From positions 1 to 53,674 of the forward strand of contig CANJVG010000011.1 in NCBI GenBank assembly GCA_947478005.1: a stretch of 53,674 bases of DNA, read 5' to 3'. The stretch is from Bacteroidota bacterium. GTDB lineage: Bacteria; Bacteroidota; Bacteroidia; Chitinophagales; LD1. The first letter of the stretch is position 1; each line of letters begins with the position of its first letter. The notes below the pieces were generated by a model. The model was not told where the DNA came from. It ran no database searches and saw only the letters and a list, made by a program, of their open reading frames with translations. This document shows, one piece after another, positions 3,001 to 50,757 of the stretch. Both the position numbers and the translations under genes were made by a program.

Positions 3001-6000
3001 GCTGGCGGTAAGCGTAACTGTGCCACCACATTGTGCTGCCGGTGCCGAAGGAGTGATTGATGGAACCGTTGGTGTTCCGTAGTAAATATTGACATCGTCT
3101 ATTCTGAATTGAGAAGCTGTACTCAGTTGTACAAATTTAACAGCTGCTGTAGCAGAAGAAGGTATCGCCCCAACCACGCGCACTAAGTACCAGCCTGCCG
3201 CTCCGGTTATAAGACCTGTTAAAGGCATAGGCGTTGAAAAAGTGGTGCCATCGCTGCTGACTGCTAAGCCAAGGGTACTGCCGGTTTCACCCGCCAAACT
3301 TTTATAAACACCGAAGGTAAGCGATACGGTATTGTAAGCCAGTGTATTTATTCCGTTTATCTGAAAATATAAACCTGCTGTATTGGTAAGAAAAACATTC
3401 GCACCACCAGAAGCACCTGCATATCCTGTAGAGTTTGTGGTATTCCGCAAATCACCGGTGCCCGACATAGTTTGTGCTGTATTCACAAATCCATTAGCTG
3501 CTTCATGGGTAGCAATGACAGTCGTGCCGCCTACAGTGCCCATGTTTTCGCTTGAAAATCCGGCTATAGATGTTACAGTATTATACTTAATCCGGATATC
3601 CTGTGTGTTATCACTGCCGAGAATAAGTGGCGTAGTTGTTAATACTCTTATTCTATATCCCGATCCATTTGGTGTAGATGTAGGTATAGTGGCCGAAATG
3701 GTACCGCTGGTGGTGGTGTTCAGCGTTCCGATAATGTTTGAAGTGGTATTGGCAAATACACCGCTGGCATCAGATAATTGTGCCTTGAATGCAATAGAGG
3801 ATATTGGATTGGATATGGTGTAAGGAACCGAAACGCTGCCACCTGGACATATAAAGTTAGGGATAAGCGCGCTGGTGGTAATGGTGATAGGAGTGAAGCT
3901 TACATCAATCGTATGGTTGGAAGACACATTGGTGAAGTTATATGAACCAACCACTCCAACCGAAATTCCATCCACTAAAACATCCAGTACCTGATAGCCA
4001 AAAGCTGCATTGATTACGTAGTTTTGACTGGAACCGCAGGCTACTGAAGTCGCTCCGCTCGGACTGATAGTACCATTTGCTCCGGCTGTGGCAGTAATGG
4101 TACTTGGACTGTTGATGATATAAGTAGCAGAAATAGTGTGTGCAGCCGTTACGTTGGTAAAGGTATAGGTACTAACCGCACCTACGGAAATGCCATCCAC
4201 CAATACATCTGCTACCTGATAACATGGAGCTGTACCGGCTATGGTAAAGGTCTGATCAGCTCCTGAAGTTACATTTACCGAACCGCTCGGGCTGATAGTA
4301 CCATTGGCACCGGCTGAAGCAGTAATGGCAAAGCCACAACCACCTACCGTAACCGGTGTGGCTGATGATTGTGCGTAGCAAGTTCCATTTTTACCTACCA
4401 CAGAATAATTACCGGTAGCTGAGGTTGTATAAATCGAACTGTTGGATCCCGGACCAGGAATGACTAAGCCGGTTCCTACATCGAACCATTGGTAACTGGT
4501 AAATCCCGCACCTGCTGTAAGTGAAACTGTACCTGCCGGGCAGTTCAATGAACCAACACCTACTGATGGACCTGCTGTTACGGCCTGAGTAAAAGTGATA
4601 GTAGCTCCTGTAATATATACACTCCCAGTTACACCGCACGTAGCAGTATTTACACCACCGGCATTATTTCCCCAATTATTAGTATTACTTGTTCTATTTG
4701 TAAAAGTAGCATTTGTGGCACCTCTTATGCCTACCTGAGCGGAAGCAACACCAGCAATGCAGTAAGGTGTTTCATCGCCATACGCCAATACAATCTGGTT
4801 GCTTAAAGTGCCTCCATTTTCATTTAGTTTAATCTGAAAATCTTGGCGATCATTGTTATTACCTCCTAAAAAGTATGAACAAGTATTATCATTAGTACAT
4901 GTATATCCAATCCATTGTATAGTTAATATTCTGTTAGGAGCTACACCTGTTACTGTATATCCGATAGTCGGAGTAACAGAAGAACTGACAAAATTTGAAT
5001 TAATAAACGCGCCCATTGCCGAAATAATCCCATCAATGGTTCCTGAGCCACCAAGGTTTGCAGAAGCATTGCTGAGGGGGTTGGTAGCAGTGGCAAGCGG
5101 GGTTCCTGTTCCGAACCAGATATAACCATTAGTGTTTAAACCAAAAGTAGTGTAGTTAGTTCCACCATAATTAAAAGTAAAGCCAATAGGCTGGCTGGTA
5201 TAATTGGTGTTTGTAATGTTGCCGGATTGCAGAACTGTAGTTGGTGTAATGGCGGTCATTACTGTTCCGGTTCTTACCACGGTAGCAGCACAACCGCCAC
5301 TTGTAGTTCCATCCAAGGTGCTTTGCGCAGCTGTAAGTGGTGTAGCGAACCAATAGCAATTTGGGGTGGCGTTGTATTCATATATATCGAAGGTATAGCC
5401 TGTTAAGTTCGCCATACCTGTTACGTTTACCGTAGTTCCCGTGCCATTATACACCACAAAGTTCCCTGTGCCGGTAATAGCTGAACCTGTTCCTGCACCA
5501 AACGCAGTGTTAGTGGTATAAGTAGCATTGTATGTAGGAAACACACGGGCAGTAGCGGTTAAGCGAGCCACTACCAATACATTCGTTCCGCTACCGCGCA
5601 CCCAGGTGGCGGTCATCGCATTGTTGGTAATAGCGCTATAGGTCAAGCTGGTAGCATTCGATGCAGGGGAGCAGGAAGCAGTGGTTTGTGCCAGAGTAGC
5701 TGCACTTTGATAACAAGACCCTGCGCTGTTATATTCATATACTGAGTAGGTATAGCCTGTAGAAGGAGTTAAGTTACTTACGTTTACAGTGGTTCCCGTA
5801 CCTGAATAAACGACATAGTTACCGGCTCCGGTGGTCGCGCCACTACCAAACACCGAATTAGCGGCATAACTGCTACCGTTGGTTGGTGCTACTGCTGCTG
5901 TGGAGGTCAAACGAGCTACTACTATAACCCCTGCATCGCCATTACCGCGCACCCAGTTTACATCATTGCTGGTGCTTAGCAGGTTGCCAAAGTTAATACC

Positions 6001-7182
6001 CGATGCCGGTGTGGTCGGAGGCACACAGGTAGGCACGACAATAGTGCCTGCCGTAGCAGCCCCCTGATAACAGGTGCTTGTGGCATTATATTCAAACACC
6101 GAAATATTGTAAGTAACTCCATTGGTTAAACCCGTTAACGGAACCGTAACAACAGTTGAATTGTCTCCGGGAGTAGTAGAAGCATAAACCAGAAACCCGG
6201 TACCTACAGCAGTACCACTACCGTACACAGTACTAGCACCGGTATAAACAGTGCCCGTACTTGGTGAGCCGGTGGCAGTAGTTGCTTTAGCTATAGCTAT
6301 TACTCCTCCGGTGCCGCTACCTCTAGTAAAAGAAAAAGAAGCGGATGAGTTAGGACCCGGTGAACCTACAGAAATGGAGCCTGTAGAATATGCAGTAGCC
6401 GAAGTAGTTGGCTGTGTACATGCCGAGGATACAGTGAACTTAACATTTGGAATTGCCGACACATTGGTAGTAAAGGTTGAAGCACAAGTCACGGCAGCAC
6501 CTCCGTTATGAATCATTTGAACCACGCCCACATTGGTACGCCTGCAACCACCATAGGCAGTTATAATGCCTACACCTGTAAAAGTATAACAATACTCCAC
6601 CACTAAGTTGCTGGTGCCATCCCAGGTAAAATTGGTGGCAAGCGTGTTGGTTACGTTATACCCGGTTGAATTTGGAAAAGTTATTGCTGTTGGTCCAAAC
6701 ACCGTAGTCAAGCCGGTTTGAGGGCTACCGAATGCTAACGATGCTGCTGCCGTGTTCTTCATTTTAATTGTGGTTCCAACTTGGTTCTTACAGGTTGCCG
6801 TACCAACCGAGGTGCATACGTCCCACGAGGCGGTTGAAATGACATAAGGAACACCCGTGGTTAAACCCGCGGCTGTCAAGGCGGCATTAATCTGGGTGGC
6901 CAGGTATAAAATCTGCAAATGTTTTCCTCCATTACCACTGCCAACACAAACTCCGTAGGGCGAAGCATTTACGGCAGTAGTTCCTGCAGAAGTTCCAGTC
7001 ACAGTGACTACCCCAGTTCCAACCTGAATTACGGTCTGGGCAAAAGAAGGAGTGCTCATCAAGAGCAAAAGAAAAGGCAGTAACAAAATGTTACGCATTG
7101 CGTTAAACATATTGTAGGCTTTTCTGGGTGCTGTTGCTAAAAAGTAAACTGGTTCAGTGCGTAGCGTTGACTGTGTTTTCAT
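1..7182 (-). CDS. Giant secreted multi-domain adhesin, C terminus beyond the left edge
   Basis: One reading frame stays open from the ATG at 7182 to position 1 with no stop, so at least 2394 codons are present and the C terminus is missing. The N terminus holds a signal peptide (hydrophobic run LLLPFLLLLMSTPSFAQ). ATGs at 7110 and 7098 would give a more compact signal peptide and are real alternatives to 7182. Beyond it come several modules of about 110-130 residues built on 'NATxxCY' and 'WVRGSG' motifs (fibronectin III-like, my inference), two modules with 'ITATAGANGTISPSG', MAM/jelly-roll-like segments with 'FRIDDVNIYYG' and 'ARLDDIKLQAY', Ig-like segments, and SprB-like 'VTCYGAANGQIDI'. 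This composition is typical of T9SS cargo and surface adhesins of Bacteroidota. A sorting domain would be expected past the edge but cannot be seen. The exact ligand is unknown. Confidence 0.85.
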   Translation of the reverse strand, partial: MKTQSTLRTEPVYFLATAPRKAYNMFNAMRNILLLPFLLLLMSTPSFAQTVIQVGTGVVTVTGTSAGTTAVNASPYGVCVGSGNGGKHLQILYLATQINAALTAAGLTTGVPYVISTASWDVCTSVGTATCKNQVGTTIKMKNTAAASLAFGSPQTGLTTVFGPTAITFPNSTGYNVTNTLATNFTWDGTSNLVVEYCYTFTGVGIITAYGGCRRTNVGVVQMIHNGGAAVTCASTFTTNVSAIPNVKFTVSSACTQPTTSATAYSTGSISVGSPGPNSSASFSFTRGSGTGGVIAIAKATTATGSPSTGTVYTGASTVYGSGTAVGTGFLVYASTTPGDNSTVVTVPLTGLTNGVTYNISVFEYNATSTCYQGAATAGTIVVPTCVPPTTPASGINFGNLLSTSNDVNWVRGNGDAGVIVVARLTSTAAVAPTNGSSYAANSVFGSGATTGAGNYVVYSGTGTTVNVSNLTPSTGYTYSVYEYNSAGSCYQSAATLAQTTASCSPASNATSLTYSAITNNAMTATWVRGSGTNVLVVARLTATARVFPTYNATYTTNTAFGAGTGSAITGTGNFVVYNGTGTTVNVTGMANLTGYTFDIYEYNATPNCYWFATPLTAAQSTLDGTTSGGCAATVVRTGTVMTAITPTTVLQSGNITNTNYTSQPIGFTFNYGGTNYTTFGLNTNGYIWFGTGTPLATATNPLSNASANLGGSGTIDGIISAMGAFINSNFVSSSVTPTIGYTVTGVAPNRILTIQWIGYTCTNDNTCSYFLGGNNNDRQDFQIKLNENGGTLSNQIVLAYGDETPYCIAGVASAQVGIRGATNATFTNRTSNTNNWGNNAGGVNTATCGVTGSVYITGATITFTQAVTAGPSVGVGSLNCPAGTVSLTAGAGFTSYQWFDVGTGLVIPGPGSNSSIYTTSATGNYSVVGKNGTCYAQSSATPVTVGGCGFAITASAGANGTISPSGSVNVTSGADQTFTIAGTAPCYQVADVLVDGISVGAVSTYTFTNVTAAHTISATYIINSPSTITATAGANGTISPSGATSVACGSSQNYVINAAFGYQVLDVLVDGISVGVVGSYNFTNVSSNHTIDVSFTPITITTSALIPNFICPGGSVSVPYTISNPISSIAFKAQLSDASGVFANTTSNIIGTLNTTTSGTISATIPTSTPNGSGYRIRVLTTTPLILGSDNTQDIRIKYNTVTSIAGFSSENMGTVGGTTVIATHEAANGFVNTAQTMSGTGDLRNTTNSTGYAGASGGANVFLTNTAGLYFQINGINTLAYNTVSLTFGVYKSLAGETGSTLGLAVSSDGTTFSTPMPLTGLITGAAGWYLVRVVGAIPSSATAAVKFVQLSTASQFRIDDVNIYYGTPTVPSITPSAPAAQCGGTVTLTASPNSTDGASLSWSDASTGNTLVASATGNYSATITDGFGCVANVGPVAVAITVPLVPSVSIANSSTYVCTGVANTFSSSVLNGGTPTYQWYNNGSSIPGATNNTYTPAANTLSNGDAITLSVTSSGSCLTTPTATSNQLTAQKLAYSPTTVWTETFGTNTTTNVAAYASYSNGQGFTFAGSPGGYPEIRTSQPSPTGSGASGGSNMFFATIGSAGGPVVLTISGINTTSAFPNNLSFWVWNDGFALSNSSSFKMEYSTDGTNYFPITYGPTSATLNWYFITINNALPKASNVRLRFTQSGSIQARLDDIKLQAYTTGDASVSPSGPIDICSGATQTLNATPNPGSGITYLWNNAATTAGIGVTTGSNYIVTLTDVFGCKSSASTVVNIIPTVGTPSAISVSAGTEPVCHLTNGTTTTTYSTTASNSTGFNWTLSNNAAGSIDAGGVMTWANGFDGTVDIRVTASGCNGPSAQVVRTVTVNPTPTFTRTFTNVTCYGAANGQIDITTLVGSAPFTYSLDAGTSYPYNLPTISSLSPATYQVKVKDVNGCESATSNVIITQPAAALSVTATNGSPYSTTVTASLFSNPTGGTAPYTYAWSGPGFTSSLQNPTRAFTLVTMTGTYTVTVTDANGCTATASTVMNVYDGYVWTGAVSGDWANNGNWSFQVPDYPDDCTQRSYIQAGTPFSPTVNIAGLTVGNITLVNGAVLTLANDLTLCGNLTGSGTTLYSGVAGPGKLIMKSTPSVLQTISGKTRFVGALRIDNSAGVRVNYGSTQVVNALELKTGVLTVTNSGFMTFISTSSSQCAIIDNFSAGMTGSISGAVVMQRKYDAPTAPFYKTQHYMGSPVDQPLLTQFGANGTPGYIINTTCNERASSPGSPFGDVAQYDEDHGAACTLQGWKIMNAGSAVNGRGYSVSKNGAGTLSLTGVPNQATNYARTGLTNSNWTNTTLQGYTDVSGWHMMSNPWLANLRITTNGGVGFDNQVAVWQTTGAFAGSYSYYQVG

Positions 7183-7636
7183 GGTAATTAAGTGTGTTTG
7201 CTTTAGATTGCGCAATTATAAATCAAAATATCAAATAATGCGCCAATTTTCAAGGCGAAATCAGATATTTTTTTGCCTGGGTATACCTTTTGTGCTTTTT
7301 CATAGGCGTTTAGCTAAGACATTTTTTTAAATTTTATTTAAAACTTGCCGTACTTTAAGTTAATATAAGTGACCTCTGTCTATATTTTTGGATAGACAAG
7401 GTCATTTTTTTTCTACCCCTTATTCAAGCAGCAATCAACCGGGCAATAGAGGTGGTGTTTGAAATTCTTAAACACGACAGGCGGTGTAACCAATAAGCGG
7501 CAACAGTTGAAGTATTTCTAAGCTTAGTGTTTGACTACAATTCTAAGCGCTTCATGGCCTCAAAAATTTCACTTTTTTCATAAGCAGCGTATAATGAGGC
7601 CAATATTAATGGTAAGTTATAGCTTTTTTGGGATTC
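7183..7636. other. Intergenic leader between divergent genes, no gene seen
   Basis: This AT-rich stretch separates the start of the giant adhesin (-) from the repeat array upstream of the sulfotransferase (+). It should contain the adhesin promoter, but I found no convincing TAnnTTTG/TTG pair. No open frame of credible composition and no RNA gene was recognised. Confidence 0.5.
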
Positions 7637-7912
7637 AACTATTATCATAGTCACGCGCAACCATTATTACAGTCATGAGTGACCATTACAATAGTTGCGT
7701 GCAAACCAGATCTTAGTCACGTGTAACCATTATAATAATTGCGGCAAACCAAATCATAATCATGAGTGACCATTATAATAGTTGCATGCATACCATATCA
7801 TAGTCAATTGTAACCATGATAATAGTTGCCCCCGACCAATATCATAGTTGCAGGCAATTATGATAACGATTACGAGTGAACCAAATCATAATCGCTGGCA
7901 ACCGTGGTTAAA
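7637..7912. repeat. Degenerate tandem array, 21-23 bp period (array A)
   Basis: About twelve head-to-tail units lie in the divergent gap before the sulfotransferase gene. Each begins with ACCA (7683, 7706, 7727, 7749, 7770, 7793, 7814, 7836, 7881 are anchors), continues with an AT-rich core such as TTATAATAGTTG or AATCATAATC, and ends in a variable 6-8 bp. Spacings between anchors are 21-23 bp. The core AACCATTATAATAGTT is one mismatch from a palindrome. No protein-coding frame runs through it. The units resemble those at 51177-51307. Confidence 0.85.
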
Positions 7913-8062
7913 ACAGCCGGGTCCTATTATAATACGTGGTTGATTGGTAGCTAAATTTAGTTCGATGCCATAAGCATACTGTTTAATGGATAGGGCAAAC
8001 ATGGTGTGCTTTTGTTTGTGAAGTGCCTGAATCCATTTCAAATATTTACTTTTCTTTGTATT

Positions 8063-9097
8063 ATGACAACTCCGGTTTCTCATTTTAAAGCCATTCAGAT
8101 GATTGGTACCCAACGTTCCGGCTCTAATCTTTTAAGATTGATGCTCAATCAGGTTTCCGAAATTTATGCTCCTCATCCACCTCATATTCTACACCTGTTT
8201 TATCCCTTGCTGGCGGGCTATGGTGATTTGAAGGAAGATAGAAATTTCGAAAGCCTTATAGCTGATGTGTGCCGATACATCGAGTTAAACCCGGTGCCTT
8301 GGGAGAATGCCGATTTGGACAGAGTTAAAGTGGCAGCTCTTTGTAAGCGTAGAACACTGCTCGAAATATTTATACGAATTAACGAGATGCAATGTGTGGC
8401 CAACCAAAAAGCAATATGGTGTTGTAAGAGTCTTGAAACGGTCTATTATCTTGATAATTTTGCTACAGAGGATTTCCGGCCTTTTATCATTTATTTGGTA
8501 AGAGACGGTCGCGATGTGGCGCTTTCGTTCAAAAAGATAATGATAGGTGAAAAACATATTTATCACCTGGCTGCCAAATGGAAAAAGGAGCAGGACTTAG
8601 CCTTGAATTATTTGGAAACACTTCCGGCAGAGGCGTATATTATAGTGCGTTATGAAAATCTTGTAGCTGACCCCGCTTCTGTCATGAAAGAAATATGTGC
8701 TAAACTCGGTGTTGTTTACAGCGATTCGGTACTGAATTACTACCAAACCAACGAATCTCATAAAACCGCTGAATCGGGGAAGATGTGGGAGAATGTAGAA
8801 AAGCCAGTTATGAAGGATAATACCGGTAAGTATAAATCGGAGTTTAGTCATTTCGATTTGCAGCTATTTGAAAGAATAGCGGGTGATACCATGGATATGT
8901 TAGGTTATAAGAGGGAGATTTCGGATATGGAGAGAGTAGAAATGAAGCCCGAACACCTGGAGGATTTCAATAAGGAAAATGAACGATTAAAGAAACTTGC
9001 TATGGAGGCAGCCAGCCAAAAGGATATACAGAAAAGAAAACCGCAGAAGGAGTTTTTGGAACTGTTGAAATCGAAACTTAGGGTTAGCGCAATATGA
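8063..9097 (+). CDS. Sulfotransferase family protein (PAPS-dependent type)
   Basis: Predicted cytosolic sulfotransferase of 344 residues that would transfer sulfate from PAPS to a hydroxyl of an unknown acceptor. The 5'-phosphosulfate loop is visible near the N terminus (GTQRSGSN, residues 15-22). The 3'-phosphate-binding motif RDGRDVALS lies at residues 147-155, followed by 'RYENLVADP', typical of the Sulfotransfer_1/3 families. The frame is open from 8006, but ATG 8063 (MTTPVSHF) places the loop at the usual distance from the N terminus and avoids a stretch unlike the family. The C-terminal 60 residues are charged and probably helical. The stop overlaps the next ATG (ATGA, 9094-9097), which suggests translational coupling to the arylsulfotransferase-like gene. 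The substrate is not predictable from sequence. Confidence 0.85.
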   Translation: MTTPVSHFKAIQMIGTQRSGSNLLRLMLNQVSEIYAPHPPHILHLFYPLLAGYGDLKEDRNFESLIADVCRYIELNPVPWENADLDRVKVAALCKRRTLLEIFIRINEMQCVANQKAIWCCKSLETVYYLDNFATEDFRPFIIYLVRDGRDVALSFKKIMIGEKHIYHLAAKWKKEQDLALNYLETLPAEAYIIVRYENLVADPASVMKEICAKLGVVYSDSVLNYYQTNESHKTAESGKMWENVEKPVMKDNTGKYKSEFSHFDLQLFERIAGDTMDMLGYKREISDMERVEMKPEHLEDFNKENERLKKLAMEAASQKDIQKRKPQKEFLELLKSKLRVSAI

Positions 9098-10836
9098 AAG
9101 TAATTTCATTTTTGCAAGTTTTGTTAGCTAAAGCCGGCCATAAATTGTTTCAATTAACCTCTCCCGACCATGTTGACTCCTATCGTTCGTTTTATTCTCC
9201 AACCCTTCCGTGGCAGATAAAGCGTCCGAAGATAACTTGTTTCGATTCGTTGGGAGTTCATTACTTAGATGCGGGGGCAGGACATCCTTCTTATCAATTG
9301 AGGACAGGAGATAGCACTCGTATCATTCCGGTTAAAGTACCGGGTGAATATTCTGTGTTTAAACCTTATGGCGATGGAGCCTTCATAAGTTCCGAGAAGC
9401 AGAAGGTTGCCAATCTTAACACGGCATGCATCTCTATTTTGCCTGATAAGAAGGTTGTGAAGAGAAAGGCTAAATCAAATGAAATGAACAGAATTTATCT
9501 GTTACTTTTATTCATGTCTTCCTTTCGTTGCTTTGCAGAAGGCAGTGAATTTAAGATTACTGTTTATGATAGTTCAGCGACTCACGGGTATTTCTTTTTA
9601 TCGAACCCCGACCGGTTGATGATTCTCGATAAGTATGGTGAACTGGTTTACTACCGTTTGCGGGCAGCTGGATGTTCCATCTATAATTTTGCTTTGCAAC
9701 CAAATGGCCTGATGAGTTATTCCGATTTAACCAGGTTTTATTTAATGGATAGCACTTTCCGCAAGGTAGATTCCATTGAAGGCAATGAAAGGTTTATCAT
9801 GGATAAGCACGAATTGCAGGTTCTTAGCAACGGTCATTTCCTGCTGCTGGGACTGGACTCGATGCGGGAGGATGGAACGATAAAAAACGCGAATAATATT
9901 GCTACTGATACTGACGGAACTGTTATTCCTAAATGGACGGTAGTGCTCGAACTTGACAGAAACAAGAATATTGTATTTGAATGGCATGCCAAGGACCATT
10001 TTAAGAAGGAGGAGATTGATTCTTATTTTTTAGTCAGAGGCCCTGTTATAAGCTGGAACCACAGCAACGCTGCGGAGATGGACCATGATGGAAATATACT
10101 GCTGAGTAACCGGAACATGGATGAGATAACAAAAATAAACCGGACAGATGGCTCGGTGATGTGGCGTTTAGGTGGTATTGCCAATCAGTTTAGGGTTATC
10201 AACTGCCCGGTACCTTTTTACGGACAACATGATATAAGACGTATAAAGAACGGTCATATAACGCTGTTCGACAATGGTAACCATAGCACACATCATGGTG
10301 CACGGGCCCTGGAATTTAAGTTGGATGAAAAGAATAAAACAGCCGAGCTAATCTGGAGTTATATGATTGATTCGAATATTTACAGCACACGTTCGGGCAA
10401 TATGCAGCGCCTTAGTAATTCAAATACCCTTATCAATTATGGTACACTTGGCAGGAACCCTGAAAATCATTTAAGCTTTGTAGTTGTAAATAAGCAGCAA
10501 GAGAAAGTTGTGCAGATGAACGGTGCTACTTCTTACAGGGTGTTTAATTATGCCTCGCTGCCTTGGCAATTGAACCGTCCGCAAATCAGTTGTTTCGATT
10601 CGTTGGGTGTTCTTTATCTGCAGGCAGAAGCAGGACATTCATCATATCGATGGAATACGGGTGATAGTACAGAAAAAATTCCCGCCAGGGTGGCGGGAAT
10701 TTTTTCTGTGTTTGTTCCTTATGGAGATTCAGGATATATCAGTTCAGAGCAATTTTCTGTTTCCATTCGCGGAACCGATGGTCATCTTTCAGGTGCTTCT
10801 ACCTCGGGTTCTGTAAAAAGAAAACCTAAGAAGTAG
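9094..10836 (+). CDS. Arylsulfotransferase (ASST)-like protein with fused N-terminal relic
   Basis: The 580-codon frame contains an aryl sulfotransferase-like beta-propeller. Motifs include 'HELQVLSNGHFLL', 'SWNHSNAAEMDHDGNILLS' (from about residue 319), 'GQHDIRRIKNGHITLFDNG' (about 376-394) and 'HSTHHGARALEF'. Family members move sulfate between phenolic compounds without PAPS, usually in the periplasm. A second signal peptide (MNRIYLLLLFMSSFRCFAE) starts at internal ATG 9484 (residue 131), so the mature enzyme may be the 450-residue product from 9484. Residues 29-105 repeat the C-terminal Ig-like segment of the same protein (residues 480-556) without gaps, at roughly 60% identity by eye. 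The N-terminal part therefore looks like the tail of a lost upstream paralogue. The start at 9094 overlaps the sulfotransferase stop. I cannot assign the sulfo-accepting histidine with certainty. Confidence 0.8.
   Translation: MKVISFLQVLLAKAGHKLFQLTSPDHVDSYRSFYSPTLPWQIKRPKITCFDSLGVHYLDAGAGHPSYQLRTGDSTRIIPVKVPGEYSVFKPYGDGAFISSEKQKVANLNTACISILPDKKVVKRKAKSNEMNRIYLLLLFMSSFRCFAEGSEFKITVYDSSATHGYFFLSNPDRLMILDKYGELVYYRLRAAGCSIYNFALQPNGLMSYSDLTRFYLMDSTFRKVDSIEGNERFIMDKHELQVLSNGHFLLLGLDSMREDGTIKNANNIATDTDGTVIPKWTVVLELDRNKNIVFEWHAKDHFKKEEIDSYFLVRGPVISWNHSNAAEMDHDGNILLSNRNMDEITKINRTDGSVMWRLGGIANQFRVINCPVPFYGQHDIRRIKNGHITLFDNGNHSTHHGARALEFKLDEKNKTAELIWSYMIDSNIYSTRSGNMQRLSNSNTLINYGTLGRNPENHLSFVVVNKQQEKVVQMNGATSYRVFNYASLPWQLNRPQISCFDSLGVLYLQAEAGHSSYRWNTGDSTEKIPARVAGIFSVFVPYGDSGYISSEQFSVSIRGTDGHLSGASTSGSVKRKPKK
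9178..9408 (+). repeat. Relic copy of the ASST C-terminal Ig-like domain
   Basis: This segment encodes 77 residues (SYRSFYSPTLPWQ... to ...ISSEKQKV) that align without gaps to the product of 10531-10761. Shared landmarks are LPWQ, CFDSLGV, TGDST, PYGD and ISSE. A weaker match continues to a shared VKRK just before the internal start at 9484. It is best read as the surviving 3' end of a tandemly duplicated gene. Confidence 0.8.
10531..10761 (+). repeat. C-terminal Ig-like domain of the ASST-like protein, second copy
   Basis: This is the partner of the 9178-9408 segment, exactly 1353 bp downstream in the same frame. It encodes 77 residues with 'SYRWNTGDST', a pattern common in Ig-like modules of secreted Bacteroidota proteins. 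Confidence 0.8.
10669..10709. terminator. Perfect 19-bp terminator-like hairpin inside a coding region
   Basis: The arms 10669-10687 and 10691-10709 are perfectly complementary around a GGG loop. The GC-rich inner part (CCCGCCA/TGGCGGG) is flanked by A6 on one side and T6 on the other, so it has intrinsic-terminator form on both strands. It lies in frame within the ASST-like gene and 145 bp beyond the stop of the convergent Ig-repeat gene. It probably terminates that minus-strand transcript. Its effect on the plus-strand gene is unclear. Confidence 0.7.
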
Positions 10837-10853
10837 TAGCAGCCCACCTTGGT

Positions 10854-13800
10854 TTATTCCTTTACAAACTTCCTCCAGCGTCCTCCTGCTTTTACAAGGT
10901 AAATGCCTTTAGCATATTGGCTTATGTCTATGGTCAAATTGGACCCTGTAGAAGCATTAGCTTTGGTCATGTAAACTACTCTGCCCGACAGGTCAACTAC
11001 TTCAACCTGTTTCTCTGTGATAGCAGCACTTTTCCAGATGATAGTCAACAAATCTTTAGCCGGATTAGGATATAGTTCAAACCCTGCAACGGTGCTAAGT
11101 TCCTGTATACCTGTAACTACTATTTGGGTACCATTTGATAAGGCATGACACCCGTTGGAATCGGTTATCTGCAACGAATAAACACCTGTTTGAGTAGCTA
11201 CATACTGCGATGCAATGGCATTCGGAATTTCAACGCCATTCAAATACCATTGATAGCCGGTGGCATTTTGCGAAGAGAGTGTATCACCCTGCACACTAAT
11301 GGAAACAGCCGGTATAGAATAGGCACTTAACGCTACATGATTAGAGGCAGCTGTGCAACCGTTGTTATCAGTAACCGTTACATAGTAATTGCCGGCTTGT
11401 TTGGCTATTATACAAATAGCAGAGTCTCCTGTATTCCATAGGTAAGCAGCAAAGTTGCCCGCACAAATTTGTGATGAATCGCTGGAGCAGATGATAGTGG
11501 GGTTAGCCGAAATAGTAGCAACCGGAACAGTGTTTACAACTACCAGCGTACTGGTAGAAGGAGATGGACTGCTTGTGCAGTTGCCTAAGGTAGCTACTAC
11601 AGAATATGTACCGGTATCTGCTAAAGTTATGCCTGGTCTGCTTGGGCTGGATTGGCTAAATCCATTTGGCCCTGTCCAGGAGTAAGTTGCACCGTTGATA
11701 GTAGTAGCATTTAAGTTCAGTGTTTGGCCTTCGCAAACGGGACTGTTGGAAGTAGTCACCGAAATGACCGGTGTAGGGTCAACCGAAACAGTAACTGTAG
11801 CAGGAGCACTTACACAGCTACCAATAGTAGCCACCACTGAATAGGTTCCGCTATCGGTACCCAATACATTGGCTTTGCTTGGGTTTTGCTGATTGAAGTT
11901 GTTAGGGCCTGTCCATGCGTAGGAAGCACCGCTTACAACTGAGGCTGTCAAATTAAGCATGGCGCCTTCACATACCGGACTGTTGGATGAAGCCGTAGGT
12001 GCAGTCGGTGTATTGCTGATAGAAACCACGGTGGTAGCTGCATTGCTGCTGCAATTTCCTACCGTAGCTATCACCGAATAAGTACCGGAATCACCGATGG
12101 TTACATTGTTCTTGGTCGGGTTCTGTTGGTTGTTGAAGTTGTTGGGGCCTGTCCAGTTGTAAGAAGCGTTGTTGATGACAGTAGCATTTAATTGCAGATT
12201 GTCCCCTACACATAAGGGCGAATTGGAAGAGGCTGTAGGTGTTGCCGGAATAGGATTAATGACAACCGTAGTGGATGACGAAGAACTGTTGCAACCATTT
12301 ACCACAGCCACTACAGAATAAGTGCCGGCATCACCAATAGTTGTATTAGACTTACTTGGGTTTTGCTGATTAGTGAAATTGTTTGGTCCTGTCCAATTAT
12401 ACGTTGCATTGCTTATTACAGTAGCGTTTAGCTGCAGCGTAGCTCCTTCACAAAGCGGTCCGTTGTTAGAAGCCGTTGGTGAATTAGGAATCGTGTTTAC
12501 CACCACTAAGGTAGAAGCCGGTGCACTGCTGCAATTGCCTACGGTAGCAATTACATTGTAAGTTCCTGCATCGCCTGTAGTTACATTGGCTTTGCTTGGA
12601 TTTTGTTGATTGTTGAAGTTGTTTGGTCCTGTCCAGTTATAAGTTGCATTATTAATAGCGGTAGCATTTAACTGCAAGGTTGCACCCACACAAACGGGTG
12701 TGTTGGAAGAGGCTGTTAAGCCTGTAGGCAAAGCATTAACCACCACAGTTGTGGTAGAAGCGATACTGCTGCAACCGCTTACCACGGTCACTAAAGAATA
12801 GGTACCCGCATCGGAAGTAGTGGCATTGGTCTTACTTGGGTTTTGTTGATTGTTGAAGATGTTTGGTCCTGTCCAGTTATAGGTAGCGTTGGCTACGGTG
12901 GTTGCACTTAACTGCAAAGTAGCGCCTGCACAAATAGGCCCGTTATTGGACGCGGTAGCAGAAGTAGGAGCCGGATTGATTACTACTGTAGTAGTAGCAG
13001 CCGGACTCGTACAGCCACTAACTACATCCACTACGCTATAAGTTCCAGCATCACCTGTTGTTACATTGGCTTTGCTCGGGTTTTGTTGATTAGGAAAAGC
13101 GTTAGGCCCTGTCCAGTTATAAGTAGCATTGGTTACATTGGTTGCATTCAACTGCAAAGTAGCACCGGCACAAAGAGGGCCGTTATTGGAAGCAGTAGGA
13201 GCGGAGGGGATTGTATTGACAACTACGGTGGTAGTAGATGCAGCACTGTTACAACCACCTACGGTTGCTATCACACTATACACCCCTGCATCAGCTGTAG
13301 TTACATTTGCTTTGCTCGGGTTTTGGGTCGCGTTAAAAGTATTAGGGCCTGTCCAGTTATAAGTGGCATTGGTAACGTTTGCTGCATTTAATTGCAGGGT
13401 TCCACCAACACACAATGGCGAATTGGAAGAAGCCGTAGGTACAGCTACAGCAGCCGGATTGCTAATCGTGATATTCGTTCCATTCGTTGTGCAGGTACCA
13501 TCACCTGCCGAAACAGTGTAAGTACCGGGAGCCAAACCGGTGAAAGCGCCTGTTGCATTGGTTTGAGCCGAGCCGCTGTTGATGGTGTAAACAGTAGCCC
13601 CTGTTGCGGTGATGGTAATCGTACCGTTGTTTGAATTGTTGCAGGTAGGTTGTGTGCTGCTTTGGTTGGTAATAGATACACCGCAGGGCGTGCCCGAAGT
13701 ACCTGTAACCTTTATTTCATCTACGGCCAGGCAAGGATCTTTAGCTCCGCTGCCGCCTGCTTGATGCCACATGAACGCAAACCTCAAATCGGGCTGATTA

Positions 13801-14339
13801 TCAAAAGCTGCGTTGGTAATACTAGCATTTGTCCAGACCGCTATTTGTGAATAGCTGGCCAGTAAAATCCAATTGACTCCACCATCAATACTGTAATAAG
13901 CACGACCTATATAGGCTGTGGTACTGGTATTGTGGCCTTTTGATAAATACCAAAAATTGAAATTGACACCGGTATAGCCTACTGTATTAATGGCGGTATT
14001 CATCTTCGTAAACACATCGCCTGTCATAGGGCCTTGGAAAGAAGCATTGCCTGCTAAGTTGTTGTTGATGTGCATGTAATAGCTGGTTGGATTGCCGGTT
14101 ACTGCAGCCGGCTCATTGGGTGTAGTGCCGCCCAAAAAACCACCGTTGTAGGTGTTATTGATAATCCAGTAGTTGGTATTAGCCGGGTCGCTTCCTAAAT
14201 CGGTAGTATTTAATGTCCAGGTGGTACTCGACCCCGTATTAAAGGTTTCGAAATAGATGGTGGTTTGTGCCTGTAGCCCGATGGTGCTGACCAGGGATAG
14301 CAAAAACACGAAATAAAGACGGTGTAATTTATTTTTCAT
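10854..14339 (-). CDS. Secreted Ig-like repeat protein with T9SS type A sorting domain
   Basis: A protein of 1161 residues with a signal peptide (MKNKLHRLYFVFLLSLVS, cleavage after GLQAQ). Next comes a region of about 190 residues resembling MAM/cleaved-adhesin domains ('IYFETFN', 'SIDGGVNW', 'LAVDEIKVTG'). It is followed by an SprB-like segment, then eight Ig/PKD-like repeats of about 80 residues centred on 'YNWTGPNNF' and 'DAGTYSV', then two more divergent Ig-like segments ('YLWNTGDS', 'YQWYLNG'). The last 75 residues ('ELYPNPAKDLLTI' to 'FVKE') form a type A T9SS sorting domain, so the protein is expected to be exported through the outer membrane and anchored or released. It has no recognised catalytic site and is probably an adhesin or structural surface protein. 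It converges on the ASST-like gene with a 17-bp gap. Confidence 0.9.
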   Translation of the reverse strand: MKNKLHRLYFVFLLSLVSTIGLQAQTTIYFETFNTGSSTTWTLNTTDLGSDPANTNYWIINNTYNGGFLGGTTPNEPAAVTGNPTSYYMHINNNLAGNASFQGPMTGDVFTKMNTAINTVGYTGVNFNFWYLSKGHNTSTTAYIGRAYYSIDGGVNWILLASYSQIAVWTNASITNAAFDNQPDLRFAFMWHQAGGSGAKDPCLAVDEIKVTGTSGTPCGVSITNQSSTQPTCNNSNNGTITITATGATVYTINSGSAQTNATGAFTGLAPGTYTVSAGDGTCTTNGTNITISNPAAVAVPTASSNSPLCVGGTLQLNAANVTNATYNWTGPNTFNATQNPSKANVTTADAGVYSVIATVGGCNSAASTTTVVVNTIPSAPTASNNGPLCAGATLQLNATNVTNATYNWTGPNAFPNQQNPSKANVTTGDAGTYSVVDVVSGCTSPAATTTVVINPAPTSATASNNGPICAGATLQLSATTVANATYNWTGPNIFNNQQNPSKTNATTSDAGTYSLVTVVSGCSSIASTTTVVVNALPTGLTASSNTPVCVGATLQLNATAINNATYNWTGPNNFNNQQNPSKANVTTGDAGTYNVIATVGNCSSAPASTLVVVNTIPNSPTASNNGPLCEGATLQLNATVISNATYNWTGPNNFTNQQNPSKSNTTIGDAGTYSVVAVVNGCNSSSSSTTVVINPIPATPTASSNSPLCVGDNLQLNATVINNASYNWTGPNNFNNQQNPTKNNVTIGDSGTYSVIATVGNCSSNAATTVVSISNTPTAPTASSNSPVCEGAMLNLTASVVSGASYAWTGPNNFNQQNPSKANVLGTDSGTYSVVATIGSCVSAPATVTVSVDPTPVISVTTSNSPVCEGQTLNLNATTINGATYSWTGPNGFSQSSPSRPGITLADTGTYSVVATLGNCTSSPSPSTSTLVVVNTVPVATISANPTIICSSDSSQICAGNFAAYLWNTGDSAICIIAKQAGNYYVTVTDNNGCTAASNHVALSAYSIPAVSISVQGDTLSSQNATGYQWYLNGVEIPNAIASQYVATQTGVYSLQITDSNGCHALSNGTQIVVTGIQELSTVAGFELYPNPAKDLLTIIWKSAAITEKQVEVVDLSGRVVYMTKANASTGSNLTIDISQYAKGIYLVKAGGRWRKFVKE
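11520..13440 (-). repeat. Eight tandem coding repeats of about 240 bp
   Basis: Inside the Ig-like protein gene, landmark sequences recur at 240-bp spacing (for example TTTTGTTGAT at 12601, 12841 and 13081). The central units are most alike, while the outermost unit on the low-coordinate side is more diverged. The period is a whole number of codons, so loss or gain of units would keep the frame. Confidence 0.85.
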
Positions 14340-14383
14340 AGGTAACTGGTTTGAATTTTTTGTATCTTATTTTTTATGGACTA

Positions 14384-14391
14384 CGAAGGTA
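14384..14391 (-). promoter_or_regulatory. Possible -7 element of the Ig-repeat gene
   Basis: On the minus strand the sequence reads TACCTTCG, one base from the Bacteroidota -7 consensus TAnnTTTG, about 45 bases before the ATG at 14339. No strong -33 TTG partner was identified, so this is a weak call. Confidence 0.3.
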
Positions 14392-14602
14392 TATATTTTA
14401 AGGCTAAATAAATGTTCCGCCACCCATATTTATTTTAGCCGACCTTGAGCGAAGGCAAATTGGCCTTGAAAGGAGAGAAGTCGGGGGCTGAATATAGGGC
14501 TACTTATCCACATGAAATTTCTGGGAAATCGAACTGAGCGAAAATTACTCTTTATTTTTTCATTTTAGCGCCCGTTCTCATTAACTCTAAAATAACCCTG
14601 AC

Positions 14603-15904
14603 ATGAGCAAGCAACGACATTATTACTACATTGAAGGAAAAGACCCCGTTAATCCTTCGCAGTTAAAATTCATTCGCAGAGATATTGAATGTGATGATGC
14701 GTTTGAAGATGACCTCATCATGCTGGCCTTTCCTATCAAGATGATGGAGGAGATTTCTACTGTGTTGTCTAATTTCGGTTTAAGAAATGATGCCGAGTAT
14801 TTCTATAGTGAGTGCAAGGAAGTGGTAAGTGTGCCCGAAAAACATGTGAATGAAAAGGGCGAAGGCAAACTGGCTTTCCAGAGTTACTTTCATAAGTTCC
14901 CTGAATCGGTGAATGCATTTTTTGATGATGCTATTGTGGTGGTTATGCTCCATCCGCTTACCAATGCCGACTCGTCTAACAGAGATTATAATATGATAGG
15001 CTACATCCATGCCAATCATATCGACTTTACATCGCCCGATGGCGAGGTGCACAAAGGCTATTACTACAACGTACTTCGCCTAAGCGAACAAACCGTGAAC
15101 GGCAAACCGATTTACAGACGCAAACGTATTTTCACCACCATGTTCAGCATCCTGCTGGATATTGTGACCCTCAACGATATTCACTTTGTGTATGCTTCGA
15201 TGGGGCGCGAGAACCAGGCCATCAATGATGCCCTGATGATGAACAGCACACGCACCGGCAAGTTCTACGAAACCTTCCCGATGCAAAACAATACGCACGT
15301 TAACCTGCTGTATGGCAGCAGTAGCGCTTCGAAAAGGCTGGTGGATATTTCAAACAATCACGAAGCGCTGCGCGAATATTATCAGCACGCCCAGGCAAGC
15401 AAAAGCAGCTTTGTGTTTAACCAAATGCACAGCGAGGAGAATTTCTTTAAGATGGTGAGTCGTATCCTTGGTTCTTCGCCTACCAGCCGGGTGTATGCAA
15501 TGCGCGATGCCAAAGGCAATTTTGAGGCGGCAGGCTTCTTTATAAACTGGGGCGATTATCTGCATGTGAAGTTGCAGAACCCGAAAGGTCTTTTCAAAGT
15601 CATTGATTCCTTCAAAATAACCGATAAAGTATTGGTTCCTATTCTGCTGGCCGGCAAACCCGACAAGGTTCGTCAGTTGCTGAAAGGGGCAGCTTATAAA
15701 TATCGCAAGGAACACGGGGTGCAGATAACGCTGTTGAATGCCGTGAATGGCGACCCACACTTCGATATTAAAAAGAGCATTGTGTTCGACCCTTTTGTGT
15801 TTTTCGTGATTTACGACCGCAAAGAAACCCTCGAAGCAATGAAGAACCACAGTAAAGATGAACATGGTAATGTTCGGGTTTTTGTCGACACCCCTATGCT
15901 ATAG
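14603..15904 (+). CDS. Conserved protein of unknown function
   Basis: I do not recognise a named family. The 433-residue product has no signal peptide and no membrane segment, so it is probably cytosolic. It seems to have two halves. The first (about residues 20-240) includes 'NMIGYIHANHIDFTSPDGEV' and 'HFVYASMGRENQAINDALM'. The second (about 265-425) includes 'RVYAMRDAKGNFEAAGFFINW' and 'ITLLNAVNGDPHFDIKKSI'. The mixture of long strands and amphipathic helices is reminiscent of GNAT-like acyltransferase folds, but I see no diagnostic acetyl-CoA loop, so that is only a suggestion. The gene stands alone between a divergent surface-protein gene and a repeat array. Confidence 0.75.
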   Translation: MSKQRHYYYIEGKDPVNPSQLKFIRRDIECDDAFEDDLIMLAFPIKMMEEISTVLSNFGLRNDAEYFYSECKEVVSVPEKHVNEKGEGKLAFQSYFHKFPESVNAFFDDAIVVVMLHPLTNADSSNRDYNMIGYIHANHIDFTSPDGEVHKGYYYNVLRLSEQTVNGKPIYRRKRIFTTMFSILLDIVTLNDIHFVYASMGRENQAINDALMMNSTRTGKFYETFPMQNNTHVNLLYGSSSASKRLVDISNNHEALREYYQHAQASKSSFVFNQMHSEENFFKMVSRILGSSPTSRVYAMRDAKGNFEAAGFFINWGDYLHVKLQNPKGLFKVIDSFKITDKVLVPILLAGKPDKVRQLLKGAAYKYRKEHGVQITLLNAVNGDPHFDIKKSIVFDPFVFFVIYDRKETLEAMKNHSKDEHGNVRVFVDTPML

Positions 15905-15981
15905 GTCGTTTCTGTAAGATTTTCTTGATTTTGTAACGAACCATCGTTGGTTCATCGTCAGCCAAGCCTTGTTCGCCCCGA

Positions 15982-16296
15982 GACATGGATGTTTTGGTCT
16001 GAAAGATGCTTCGTCCATCGTAAAAGATTTCCCTTTTCTCTGAAAGATGTTTCGTCTATCGTAAAGGATGTTTCCTTTGCTCCAAAGGATGCTTCGTTTA
16101 TCGTAGACGGTGTTTCCTTTACTCCAAAAGAAGCTTCGTTTATCGTAGATGGTGTTTCCTTTGCTCCAAAGGAAGCTTTGTTTACCATAGACGGTGTTTC
16201 CTTTGCTATAAAGGATGCTTCGTTTATTGTGGACGGTGTTTCCTTTGCTGCAAAGGATGCTTCGTTTACCATAGACGGTGTTTCCTTTGCACTGAA
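15982..16296. repeat. Tandem array of 21-bp units, alternating as 42-bp pairs (array B)
   Basis: About fifteen contiguous units lie between two plus-strand genes. From 16045 onward every unit is exactly 21 bp (boundaries 16045, 16066, 16087, 16108 and so on to 16296). Two types alternate: one begins GGATGCTTCGTTTATCG, the other CGGTGTTTCCTTTGCTCC. At type junctions a short hairpin recurs (CCTTTG-CTC-CAAAGG). Because 21 is seven codons, both strands show long open frames (15947-16348 +, 15958-16368 -). I consider both by-products of the repeat, since neither has a convincing start or any non-repeat domain. Confidence 0.9.
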
Positions 16297-16473
16297 CCTG
16301 ACTAATTTAGTCATCCTATCCACAAAGCGGGCGGCAGAAAGACTATGAATGAACCCAATTAAAGCCATAAATTTGCTAAAGGTGTTTAACCATTGTTTCT
16401 TATTTTAGTTCCTCAATCAGTATGCAAACAGTGCTTCTAAAAAGACAACTTCGTCACCATTAAAAGCCACACC

Positions 16474-19400
16474 ATGACCGCCCGCTTAAGGCTTTTTTTA
16501 TTGCCTGTTATCTTTGCTGTATTTGCAGTGCTGCACCTCAGGGCTGCGCCTGTGGCCGGTTTCAATATCATCACCCCCATTACCAATTGCAATCCAACTA
16601 TCTATAGTTTTGTAAGCACTTCTACCGGTGCGGGTTTATCTTATCGTTGGAATTTTGGAGTTTATCCGGGTACCAATTCCATATTTCCGAATCCGAGTAC
16701 CACCTATCTCAACTGCGGTGTCTATCAGGTGAAGCTGGTAGTAACCGACAGCATCGGTCGAACCGATTCCAATATTCAAACCGTGAATATCCGCTGCTCG
16801 CCAACGGCCCAGTTTACTACCTCAGGCGTGGCGGGTTGTGTACCTTTGACCGGCTCTTTCACCAGTACCTCCCTGCCCGGCACAGGTGCAATTACCTCCT
16901 ATGTCTGGGATTTTGGCGATGGCAACGGAGGCAGCGGCAGCAATCCTTCGCATACCTACCTGGTGGCAGGTTGCAAAAATGTAACCCTTATTGTCACCAA
17001 TACCTACAACTGTACCAGCGATACCACGATTAATAATCTGCTTTGCGCCTATCAGCCACCCCATTCGGCCTTTACATCTACCAGCAGCACTTCCTGTACC
17101 ACCGGCTTAACCATTAGTTATACCGCAGGCTCTTCATCGGGTTTGGCGCCCTATAACTACCGTTGGTTGTTTCCGGGCGGCACACCTTCTAACTCCAACG
17201 TTGCCAATCCTGCTGTGGTTTATAACAGTTCTGGTCAGTTTAATGCTACCTTAATTACCACCGATTCACATGGTTGTGCGGATACAGTGGTAAAACCAAA
17301 CTATGTGTTCATAGCTGGCAACGCCCTTGATTTTACCTTTGGCACCTCCAGCTTTTGTGCTCCGTCTCAGGTATTGGCCCACGGAATTTCCACACCCCTT
17401 CCCATCTCCTGGCGTTGGACCATTACACACCCTGCTACGCTTACTGGCGATACTACACCTAACCCCAATTTTGCTTTCCCTGACAGTGGAAATTATACCA
17501 TTTGCCTTACAGCCAATTATCTAGGAGGTTGTGTGGCACAGAAATGTACTACTGTGGTTATTAAACCCTCTCCCAAGGCTTATTTTACCGCTGCGGGGGC
17601 TTTCAATACCTGTGTGTTACCCAATCCTATCACGTTTGCCGATTCTTCATCAGGCAACAATCTTAGCTATCTCTGGAACTTTCCTGGAGGGGTGCCATCC
17701 ACTTCTACTCACCAAACTCCACCGGTGGTGGTGTATAATTCCTGCGGTACCTACTTTGCCAGCTTAATCGTTACCGATTCCCTCGGCTGTAAAAACACCT
17801 ATGTGAAATTCGGCTTTCTGCATTTGGTTTGTAATCCTGCCACCTACACTGTTTCACCATCCAACGGGTGTGTTCCTTTAACCTCCAATTTTAATAGTAC
17901 TGCCAGTGCAGGTAATCCTGTGGCCTGGGTATGGGACTTTGATGACCCCGCCAGCGGTAGTGCCAATAGCAGCACTCTGCAAAATCCTTCGCACACCTTT
18001 CAAAATGATGGATGCTATAACGTAAAACTGACCACCATCAATGCACAGGGCTGTTCATCCTATTATCAATTGCCTGCGGCTGTATGTTGCGGCTACCGGC
18101 CCCATGCCAATTTCAGCGGAAACCCTCCAGTAAATTGTATCAACCAGCCTTTTTATTTCACCGATTCATCGACCAACACCTATGAATACACCGGTTATTT
18201 CTGGGACTTTCATAATGTGCCGCCCTATGTGGTGGAGGATACGGCTCAAAACCCTGTGTATACCTACTACGATGTAGGAACTTATAACATTACACTCATT
18301 GTATCGAACTACGGTTGTGGAGATACCATCACCAAGGATGATTATGTGCAAACGGTGTATCCATTGTCGGTTCCCCAGGTTATCCGCAATTGTGATAATC
18401 CCTTAACCGTAACCTTAGATGGTTCGGCTTCGCTGGGTGCGCAAACGTTGAAATGGTTCATACCAGGAGGCAGTCCCGACAGTTCAACCGCTGCTATCTT
18501 CACCGCCACCTATCCGGGTCCCGGTGATTATGGTGCCTATTTGTATGTGCAGAATGATTCCACAGGTTGTAGTGATTTAGAATCGGTCGTGGTTCACATT
18601 ACGGGTGTTGGTGCACAGTTCATCGCCAGTCCATTAAACGGCTGCACCCCTATGCAATCCTGTTTCACCAGTACTTCGAGTAATGTAACCCACTACAACT
18701 GGACAGCGATTAACTCCTTGGGCATCGTAGATACCACCGCCAATACCGAGGCCCCTTGTTTTAAATTTAAAAATTCAGGCATCTACAGCATACGGCTTAT
18801 TGTGTCCGACACGTTTGGTTGTATAGATACCGTGTACAAACCCGATTATATTCATGTTTCTCATCCCTTGGCTAACCTTACGGCTACACCCATTACGGGC
18901 TGTGCACCGTTGGTCGTAACCTTTGCCGATTCTACGATAGTTCCTTTTTCTGCGGTTGAAAAATGGAATTGGAACTTTGGCGATATTACATCCGGTGCAG
19001 CCGATTCTTCATCTCTGCAAAGTCCATTGCATACGTTCAATCTGCCCGGTACTTATTCCATAAGGCTAAGTATAGTTGACAGCAACGGATGTACCAGCAG
19101 CAAGTTGCGGGCTGCTTATGTCAAGGCAAATAAACCTGATGTTACATTCAGCGAAATAAATACACCACTGTGCAATGGTTTGCAATCGTGCTATACCAAT
19201 ACAACCGTCAACACAGGTCTTCAATATCATTGGAACTTTGGTGACGGACAAACAGCCGATTCAGCAAATCTCTGCCATCTGTTCACCACTCAGGGGCCTT
19301 TTCAAATAACGTTGGTGGTTACAGATGCCTCTAATTGTACTGACACAGCATCCAGCATCAACAACAGTAATGTTGTGTTCCCTAATCCATCTTTTATGGC

Positions 19401-50117: not shown

Positions 50118-50450
50118 GTTATTTCTTTTTACATTTTCCAATTCTTCCAAGTTCTCCGAAGGATAATATGGAAGTATAGGACATCGGCATCCTCAAATTT
50201 GTAAGCAAAGACCTTTAAACGAAGCTAAAAATAAATAATTAAGCAGGAGTGTTTATTCAACTGCTTTTGAAGGCACAGACTTCAAAATAGTCATAAGAAC
50301 TTCTAAGTCACCCTGCGGAAGACTTGGAAGAACGCGATTTTGTGGTATTCTCATTCAAGTGTAAAATTAAAACAAAGGCTTTGATTTCCCAAAACCTGTT
50401 TTGTTGATGTTAAAACCGATAATTTGGAGGCAATAACACAGTCTAAATCT
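50118..50450. other. Upstream region of the repeat protein gene, no gene seen
   Basis: About 330 bp of AT-rich DNA before array E. It should contain the promoter of the minus-strand gene at 50117, but no consensus element at correct spacing was found. A minus-strand frame at 50351-50560 enters the array and mirrors its period, so it is not called. Confidence 0.45.
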
Positions 50451-50757
50451 GAAATGGTTATGATAGATGCTATCATAATGATGTTACGAAGTGAAATGGT
50501 TAAGATAGATGCTATCGTAATGATGTTACGAAGTGAAATGGTTACGATAGATGCTATCATAATGATGTTACGAAGTGAAATGGTTACGATCGATGCTATC
50601 GTAATGATGTTACGAAGTAAAATGGTTACGATCGATGCTATCGTAATGATGTTACGAAGTAAAATGGTTACGATCGATGCTATCGTAATGATGTTACGAA
50701 GTGAAATGGTTACGATCGATGCTATCGTAATGATGTTACGAACTGAAATGGTTATTT
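50451..50757. repeat. Seven 42-bp units with internal 21-bp dyad, plus a partial unit (array E)
   Basis: Seven units of exactly 42 bp start at 50451, 50493, 50535, 50577, 50619, 50661 and 50703, followed by a partial unit from 50745. Positions 8-28 of each unit form an inverted repeat, TTACGAT-CGATGCT-ATCGTAA in units 4-7. Unit 1 has the changed but still matching TTATGAT-AGATGCT-ATCATAA. Units 2 and 3 are one mismatch away. A plus frame (50424-50777) reads through with a 14-residue period, but it starts with TTG, and most unit-to-unit changes are non-synonymous. Confidence 0.92.

Follow-up and report, generated by a model that had tools for sequence, protein, structure and literature searches.

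A perfect palindrome of two-way terminator form within an arylsulfotransferase-like gene, and its possible service to a convergent neighbor

Introduction

Can the same letters of DNA serve one gene as codons and another as the signal that ends its transcript? This question is raised by a perfect inverted repeat close to the 3′ end of an arylsulfotransferase-like (ASST) gene in a Bacteroidota bacterium. The window analyzed here is the whole contig that carries the gene (53,674 nucleotides, 53.7 kb), which belongs to a draft genome of 3.99 Mb in 230 contigs. A preliminary description of this DNA regarded the repeat as a terminator acting in both directions, which would end the transcript of a convergent neighbor and might also shorten the ASST protein.

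Both ingredients of this idea are described in the literature. Bidirectional intrinsic terminators are reported between convergent genes of Zymomonas (PMC7566282) and predicted between those of Rickettsia (PMC3027695). As for terminators within genes, some are internal to coding regions in Z. mobilis (PMC7566282), an RNA end internal to an ORF is reported for E. coli aceK (PMC7815308), and brfA has a terminator within its coding region, a few codons ahead of the stop (PMC6881298). Perfect inverted repeats embedded in protein genes, the coding palindromes, form a further group (PMC6649704). What is unusual about the ASST hairpin is, then, its place.

The Palindrome and Its Surroundings

The ASST gene (9484..10836, + strand; PF05935, 2e-29) has 450 codons, and the start at position 9484, with a signal-peptide-like N terminus, is probably its own. 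The protein carries a C-terminal Ig-like tail (about residues 360-426) and ends in a basic C terminus; its named relatives are from uncultured Bacteroidetes and Bacteroidales MAGs. A gap of 17 bp separates its ORF from that of a convergent gene (10854..14339, − strand), which encodes a secreted protein with Ig repeats (Ig_2, Ig_7) and a secretion-system sorting tail (Por_Secre_tail). On the other side of the ASST gene lies a relic C-terminal copy (9094..9483, + strand) in frame with it, preceded by a sulfotransferase gene (8006..9097, + strand; PF13469). The ATG of the relic overlaps the sulfotransferase stop codon, the frame runs from the relic into the ASST gene with no stop between (9094-9483), and a fusion of 580 residues, made of the relic copy and the full ASST protein, could be translated. 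In the MAG Umea3_bin-1094, two loci (L032 and L035) hold several adjacent ASST-like paralogues with the Ig-like tail in common, three matching tails each, one of those of L032 being on the opposite strand; this array resembles the relic-plus-full arrangement of the window.

The repeat occupies codons 396-409 of the ASST gene. Its arms (10669-10687 and 10691-10709) are complementary at 19 of 19 positions and enclose a loop of 3 nt. The center is GC-rich and lies between an A6 run in the 5′ arm (10673-10678), which, read on the − strand, is the T6 run of the terminator there, and a T6 run in the 3′ arm (10700-10705), which follows the core on the + strand and ends in codon 408; this is the layout of a bidirectional terminator. 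On each strand the T-run sits within the 19-bp stem and pairs with the A-run, so that the working terminator would be the 9-bp core TTCCCGCCA-GGG-TGGCGGGAA (10679..10699 on either strand, −14.7 kcal/mol), with T6 as the U-rich tract directly 3′ of it. Folded over 81 nt, the + strand reaches −34.4 kcal/mol (z −5.8) and the − strand −32.0 kcal/mol (z −8.6), and in both cases none of 200 shuffles was equally stable. A perfect 19-bp stem with two-way terminator form in a reading frame, as the preliminary description had it, is thus borne out by the arms, the A6 and T6 runs, and the folds of both strands, all of which agree. The same is true of the residues encoded in frame (T-E-K-I-P-A-R-V-A-G-I-F-S-V, in ORF 9094-10836). 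A terminator scan of positions 1-20000 opens with the hairpin in three rows, all on the + strand; with 22 found versus 18.8 expected in shuffles, that scan gives no excess by itself.

How good a terminator is it? The core is a stable GC-rich hairpin, ranking 62 of 94 by energy (intergenic median −16.7 kcal/mol), and the T-tail scores, which follow the d'Aubenton-Carafa form, are 4.89 on the + strand and 4.74 on the − strand (ranks 39 and 43 of 94; intergenic median 4.6). The succession of A-tract, GC core, and T-tract also occurs in many intergenic hairpins of this genome. By its letters, the hairpin would be on either strand an average terminator of its genome; the palindrome is real and statistically strong, and it is probably a working intrinsic terminator.

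Other identities were considered and set aside. A search of Rfam over 9900-11400 yielded no known RNA family, the only matches on the hairpin being two below threshold: Thr_leader (26.6 bits against a gathering value of 55, E 0.02) and Leu_leader (19.1 bits against 50, E 0.55). Threonine and leucine leaders end in terminators, so these matches are taken as look-alikes. Programmed frameshifting at the A6 run was dropped by the canonical rule, as the run lies within the stem and not before it, and no canonical slippery heptamer is in frame. A structure model of the ASST protein (mean pLDDT 71) shows residues 396-409 as short strands; two ten-residue blocks there have pLDDT values of 42 and 64, and the model consequently carries no weight at this place.

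Chance, Codons, and Rarity

Does the peptide impose the palindrome? The 22 residues around the hairpin were recoded synonymously with the codon usage of their own genome, and an arm of 19 bp was reached in 7 of 20,000 recodings, so the peptide does not dictate the palindrome. Energy tells a milder story, with a z of −2.8 against 2,000 recodings. The best of them (−40.5 kcal/mol) is more stable than the real sequence (−33.1 kcal/mol), which means that it is the perfect pairing, and not the energy, that is extreme. The E, K, I, and F encoded in the hairpin occur at their positions in 0 of the 21 homologue rows spanning the place, a count that excludes a truncated L032 row as well as the L034_2877 rows, six in all, that are Ig repeats; L037, outside this alignment, has the E and the I. 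Taken with the recoding result, this means that codon choice and residues both depart toward the palindrome, and the preference of the protein seems to have been overridden by the form of the DNA.

Inside genes, such repeats are rare. The own-genome sample comprised the window and 39 further stretches (832,674 bases), with ORFs called crudely (longest ORFs, first start codon, at least 90 aa), so that gene contexts are approximate. It contains 75 inverted repeats with arms of at least 10 bp; after exclusion of 21 with fewer than four G or C, 54 were kept, 48 of them intergenic, 4 in ORFs, and 2 partly so. An A or T run of at least four in the 5′ arm is found in 25 intergenic repeats, in one partly inside an ORF, and in a single one inside, which is the hairpin. 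With arms of at least 14 bp and at least four G or C, 28 repeats remain; 27 are intergenic, and the hairpin is again the sole one in an ORF.

The terminator form was also counted in long genes, taking sites of −13 kcal/mol or lower in ORFs of at least 250 aa and at least 90 nt from the ORF ends. The own genome gave 3 of 91 rows, namely, the hairpin on both strands and a weak site at L046 8159-8186, and four relatives gave 0 of 50 (366,577 bases). The long ORFs covered number 393 in the own genome and 177 in the relatives, or 904,374 bases, and within this sample a terminator such as the hairpin is nearly unique inside long genes. When ORFs of any size are admitted at −13 kcal/mol or lower, the own sample gives five rows (the hairpin on both strands and L046 4584-4613, 811-838, and 8159-8186), and that of the relatives gives seven, in ORFs of 276-552 nt. 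Of nine such ORFs read as translations, several from the relatives look doubtful by eye. The site at L046 4584-4613 falls within the first 42 nt of its ORF, which we take to resemble a uracil-DNA glycosylase whose start was probably called too early. Loci around the homologues in other genomes gave 14 rows, three of them in ORFs (two in L017 and one in L083); none of the three falls in the portion of the tail matching the hairpin.

The Relic Copy and the Homologues

The longest perfect arm of the relic copy is 5 bp, and its homologous 66 nt fold at −16.8 versus −33.1 kcal/mol at the hairpin. The earlier observation that no such stem exists there is therefore confirmed, with the refinement that the relic does carry a weak, imperfect one.

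The search for homologues took in 30 family genomes, 396 genomes sampled from the order, and six loci on named contigs. Best arms are 3-5 bp in seven homologous segments (the relic, the nearest orthologue G015, and five from named MAG contigs). Folded over 57 nt, the relic and ten homologous segments give −4.2 to −15.0 kcal/mol versus −30.7 at the hairpin, and the suggestion that the stem is special to the ASST copy fits the absence of the stem from all of them. G015 is 52% identical over residues 131-577 of the translation of ORF 9094-10836 (P0001) and is the only homologue above 46% identity in this search. By its translation, it too has a sulfotransferase-like gene upstream of its ASST gene. 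The preliminary description had proposed looking for conservation of the stem in orthologues; this check went against it, as G015 has no stem. For the same reason, there is no basis for covariation within the stem. One orthologue does not suffice to date the stem. In addition, the 1,151 bp left on the contig downstream of the G015 gene contain no − strand ORF of at least 80 aa. Hairpin and convergent neighbor are hence seen together only in the present genome, and one comparison cannot establish the cause of this. For the Ig-repeat gene itself, a search of 18 genomes of the genus returned many matches, partial and rich in repeats, with identities of 34-54%.

A Terminator for the Convergent Gene?

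What would such a terminator be for? The own-genome sample contains 96 convergent gene pairs, which were searched for sites of −11 kcal/mol or lower within 200 bp. When the gap is 60-150 bp, a site is near in 15 of 26 pairs; the figures are 1 of 9 at 30-60 bp and 7 of 23 at larger distances. Among the 38 pairs that overlap or are less than 30 bp apart, the ASST/Ig pair is the only one with a site. An intrinsic terminator is thus frequent where room exists and normally missing where there is none, with the ASST/Ig pair as the exception. The other 37 tight pairs also indicate that no terminator is generally needed in such a place, and the notion of terminators within ORFs as a general answer for tight convergent pairs was discarded (1 of 38).

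Within 200 bp of the ASST/Ig junction there is no second site at this threshold. The hairpin lies 3′ of the − strand gene only and inside the + strand gene, so that it is not downstream of both. With its core about 150 nt past the stop codon of the Ig-repeat gene, it appears well placed to end the convergent transcript, as had been proposed. The best reading, in which our belief and our doubt weigh about the same, is that of an intrinsic bidirectional terminator whose letters double as codons and which ends the transcript of the Ig-repeat gene. RNA polymerase leaving that gene would enter the ASST gene at its 3′ end, making about 150 nt of RNA that is not translated; on this antisense RNA the hairpin would form and stop transcription, so that most of the ASST gene would be spared antisense RNA. 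Against this stand the 37 tight pairs that manage without such a terminator, the absence of the stem in G015, the sole near orthologue, and the slightly better T-tail on the + strand than on the − strand.

What happens, under this same reading, to the polymerase that comes from the other side? For the 62 terminators found after a stop codon in the own-genome sample, the median distance from that codon to the first G-C pair of the stem is 25.5 nt; it is 22-28 nt in 28 of them and less than 20 nt in 10. We read this spacing, taken from the one genome, to mean that terminators keep clear of a ribosome standing at the stop codon, and the peak at 22-28 nt may reflect, genome-wide, a hindrance of terminators by ribosomes in this group. 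Ribosomes repress a terminator that lies late in an E. coli coding region, its efficiency falling to as low as 40% in vivo, and an in vitro study cited in the same paper is described as showing that ribosomes abolish such termination (PMC4824070). In passages of PMC13323073, Bacteroidota are absent from the phyla classed as runaway. Indirectly, the spacing and the E. coli data point to a suppression of sense termination during translation of the ASST gene. In the + direction, a trailing ribosome would cover the RNA and keep the hairpin from forming, and most ASST messages would run through to the stop codon; should the ribosome lag, termination would also occur in the sense direction, leaving a stop-less message for tmRNA. 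As the antisense RNA is untranslated and the sense RNA translated, the hairpin would act one way, being effective on the Ig transcript and mostly silent on that of the ASST gene, and we infer that this is the likely behavior.

The suggestion that early termination yields an ASST protein without its Ig-like tail is doubtful. Termination at the T6 run, at about codon 408 of the 450, would spare most of the tail (about residues 360-426) and leave a message of some 407 codons with no stop codon; what it would give is a stop-less mRNA and not a stable tail-less protein. The genome has Rho and a tmRNA (126.4 bits, over the cut-off), the RNA that deals with stop-less messages, and the expected product of sense termination is a tagged, unstable protein with most of the tail.

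A bolder extension, which we consider speculative and unlikely, is that translation gates the hairpin as a valve: the palindrome would end every untranslated, antisense polymerase and let the translated, sense ones pass, so that codons insulate the gene from its convergent neighbor, and loss of translation would turn the same element into an off-switch for the sense transcript. Should the hairpin work in the proposed way, it would offer a natural experiment on terminator suppression by ribosomes in a genome of Bacteroidota type, since one hairpin is read on two strands that differ mainly in translation. It would also mean that a protein tail yields to a nucleic-acid signal where the convergent gene is too near for an intergenic terminator.

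Likenesses to the known systems are partial. As in the intergenic bidirectional terminators, a GC core between an A-tract and a T-tract suits polymerases from both sides; unlike them, the ASST hairpin is translated, and 127 nt of the ASST ORF remain after it. It shares with the B. subtilis brfA, Z. mobilis, and aceK cases a terminator in codons before the stop, at which sense termination would leave a stop-less message, but at the ASST gene the convergent neighbor supplies a second, antisense reason. Coding palindromes and the hairpins attributed to template switching, as they are presented in PMC6649704, PMC8604942, and PMC8794818, are likewise perfect inverted repeats inside protein genes; the ASST hairpin differs in being short, single, and of terminator composition.

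Competing Explanations

The purpose could instead lie with the sense strand, the terminator yielding a non-stop ASST mRNA of the brfA/arfA kind. The brfA gene of B. subtilis works via a stop-less mRNA, which gives the layout a precedent, and the terminator does precede the in-frame stop, which comes 42 codons after the T6 run; the presence of tmRNA and the slightly better + strand T-tail agree with it. Nothing here points to regulation, however, and the product, unlike that of brfA, is enzyme-like, resembling an arylsulfotransferase, and is not a ribosome-rescue factor. The terminator spacing, moreover, suggests suppression by ribosomes, and the stem occurs in none of the ten homologous segments or the relic, so that this explanation appears quite improbable. 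Weaker still, to the point of being barely credible, are an artefact and a mobile element. A fold-back chimera could arise in a draft contig, and this genome is in 230 of them, but the reading frame and the homology continue on both sides of a hairpin that is well inside 53.7 kb. A mobile or repeated palindromic element (REP-like, or of the in-frame palindromic type) would account for a perfect palindrome inside a gene; against it, the length is unchanged relative to the relic, and the 21-base core, allowing up to two mismatches, is found at one place in the genome and not in many copies, for which reason a dispersed repeat was rejected. Beyond the hairpin itself and the relic, a DNA search gave matches of 15-32 bases with E of at least 0.32, and two of these fit an arm on both strands, neither of them with a hairpin.

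The most serious competitor concerns origin: a neutral template switch during DNA replication, between imperfect inverted repeats, may have perfected the arms in one step. The terminator form would then be incidental, tolerated through suppression by ribosomes and a variable tail. Such events are reported to make perfect stems at once (PMC8794818), and in yeast genes the homogenization of arms comes with up to five neighboring amino-acid changes (PMC8604942). In favor of a switch, the length from GAT AGY to TCT GTG is the same, 48 nt, in the relic and the ASST copy, and the ACAGAA of the 5′ arm, absent from the relic and G015, is the reverse complement of the TTCTGT in the 3′ part of the relic. 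No close orthologue gives the ancestral sequence, and the switch itself is a reconstruction. How often would chance alone bring the terminator form? When random 19-bp inverted repeats were placed in coding sequence, 1,345 of 14,478 open-frame trials (9%) were terminator-like on the sense strand and 821 of 14,478 (6%) on both strands, compared with none of the unaltered places on the sense strand. That the sole in-ORF repeat with arms of at least 14 bp is terminator-like, where 6-9% is expected, speaks against a neutral event, yet it is a single case, and with such a frequency the terminator form favors selection only mildly. A template switch is rather unlikely as the whole explanation, and less likely than the preferred reading of a terminator that serves the Ig-repeat gene.

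Further Repeats in the Window and the Sample

Other repeats were met along the way. Two pairs of similar intergenic inverted repeats in the own-genome sample (L046 14007-14049 with 14198-14236, and L110 7750-7775 with 7851-7876) lie about 100-190 bp apart, have no T-run after the stem core, and are perhaps small repeat elements. In the window itself, about five copies of a 44-bp repeat fill 7637-7848, a region devoid of long ORFs 5′ of the sulfotransferase gene. A 42-bp repeat is present in 6.8 copies at 16005-16290, with the short palindrome TCCTTTG...CAAAGGA, and a different 42-bp unit in 7.3 copies, at 96%, at 50450-50754.
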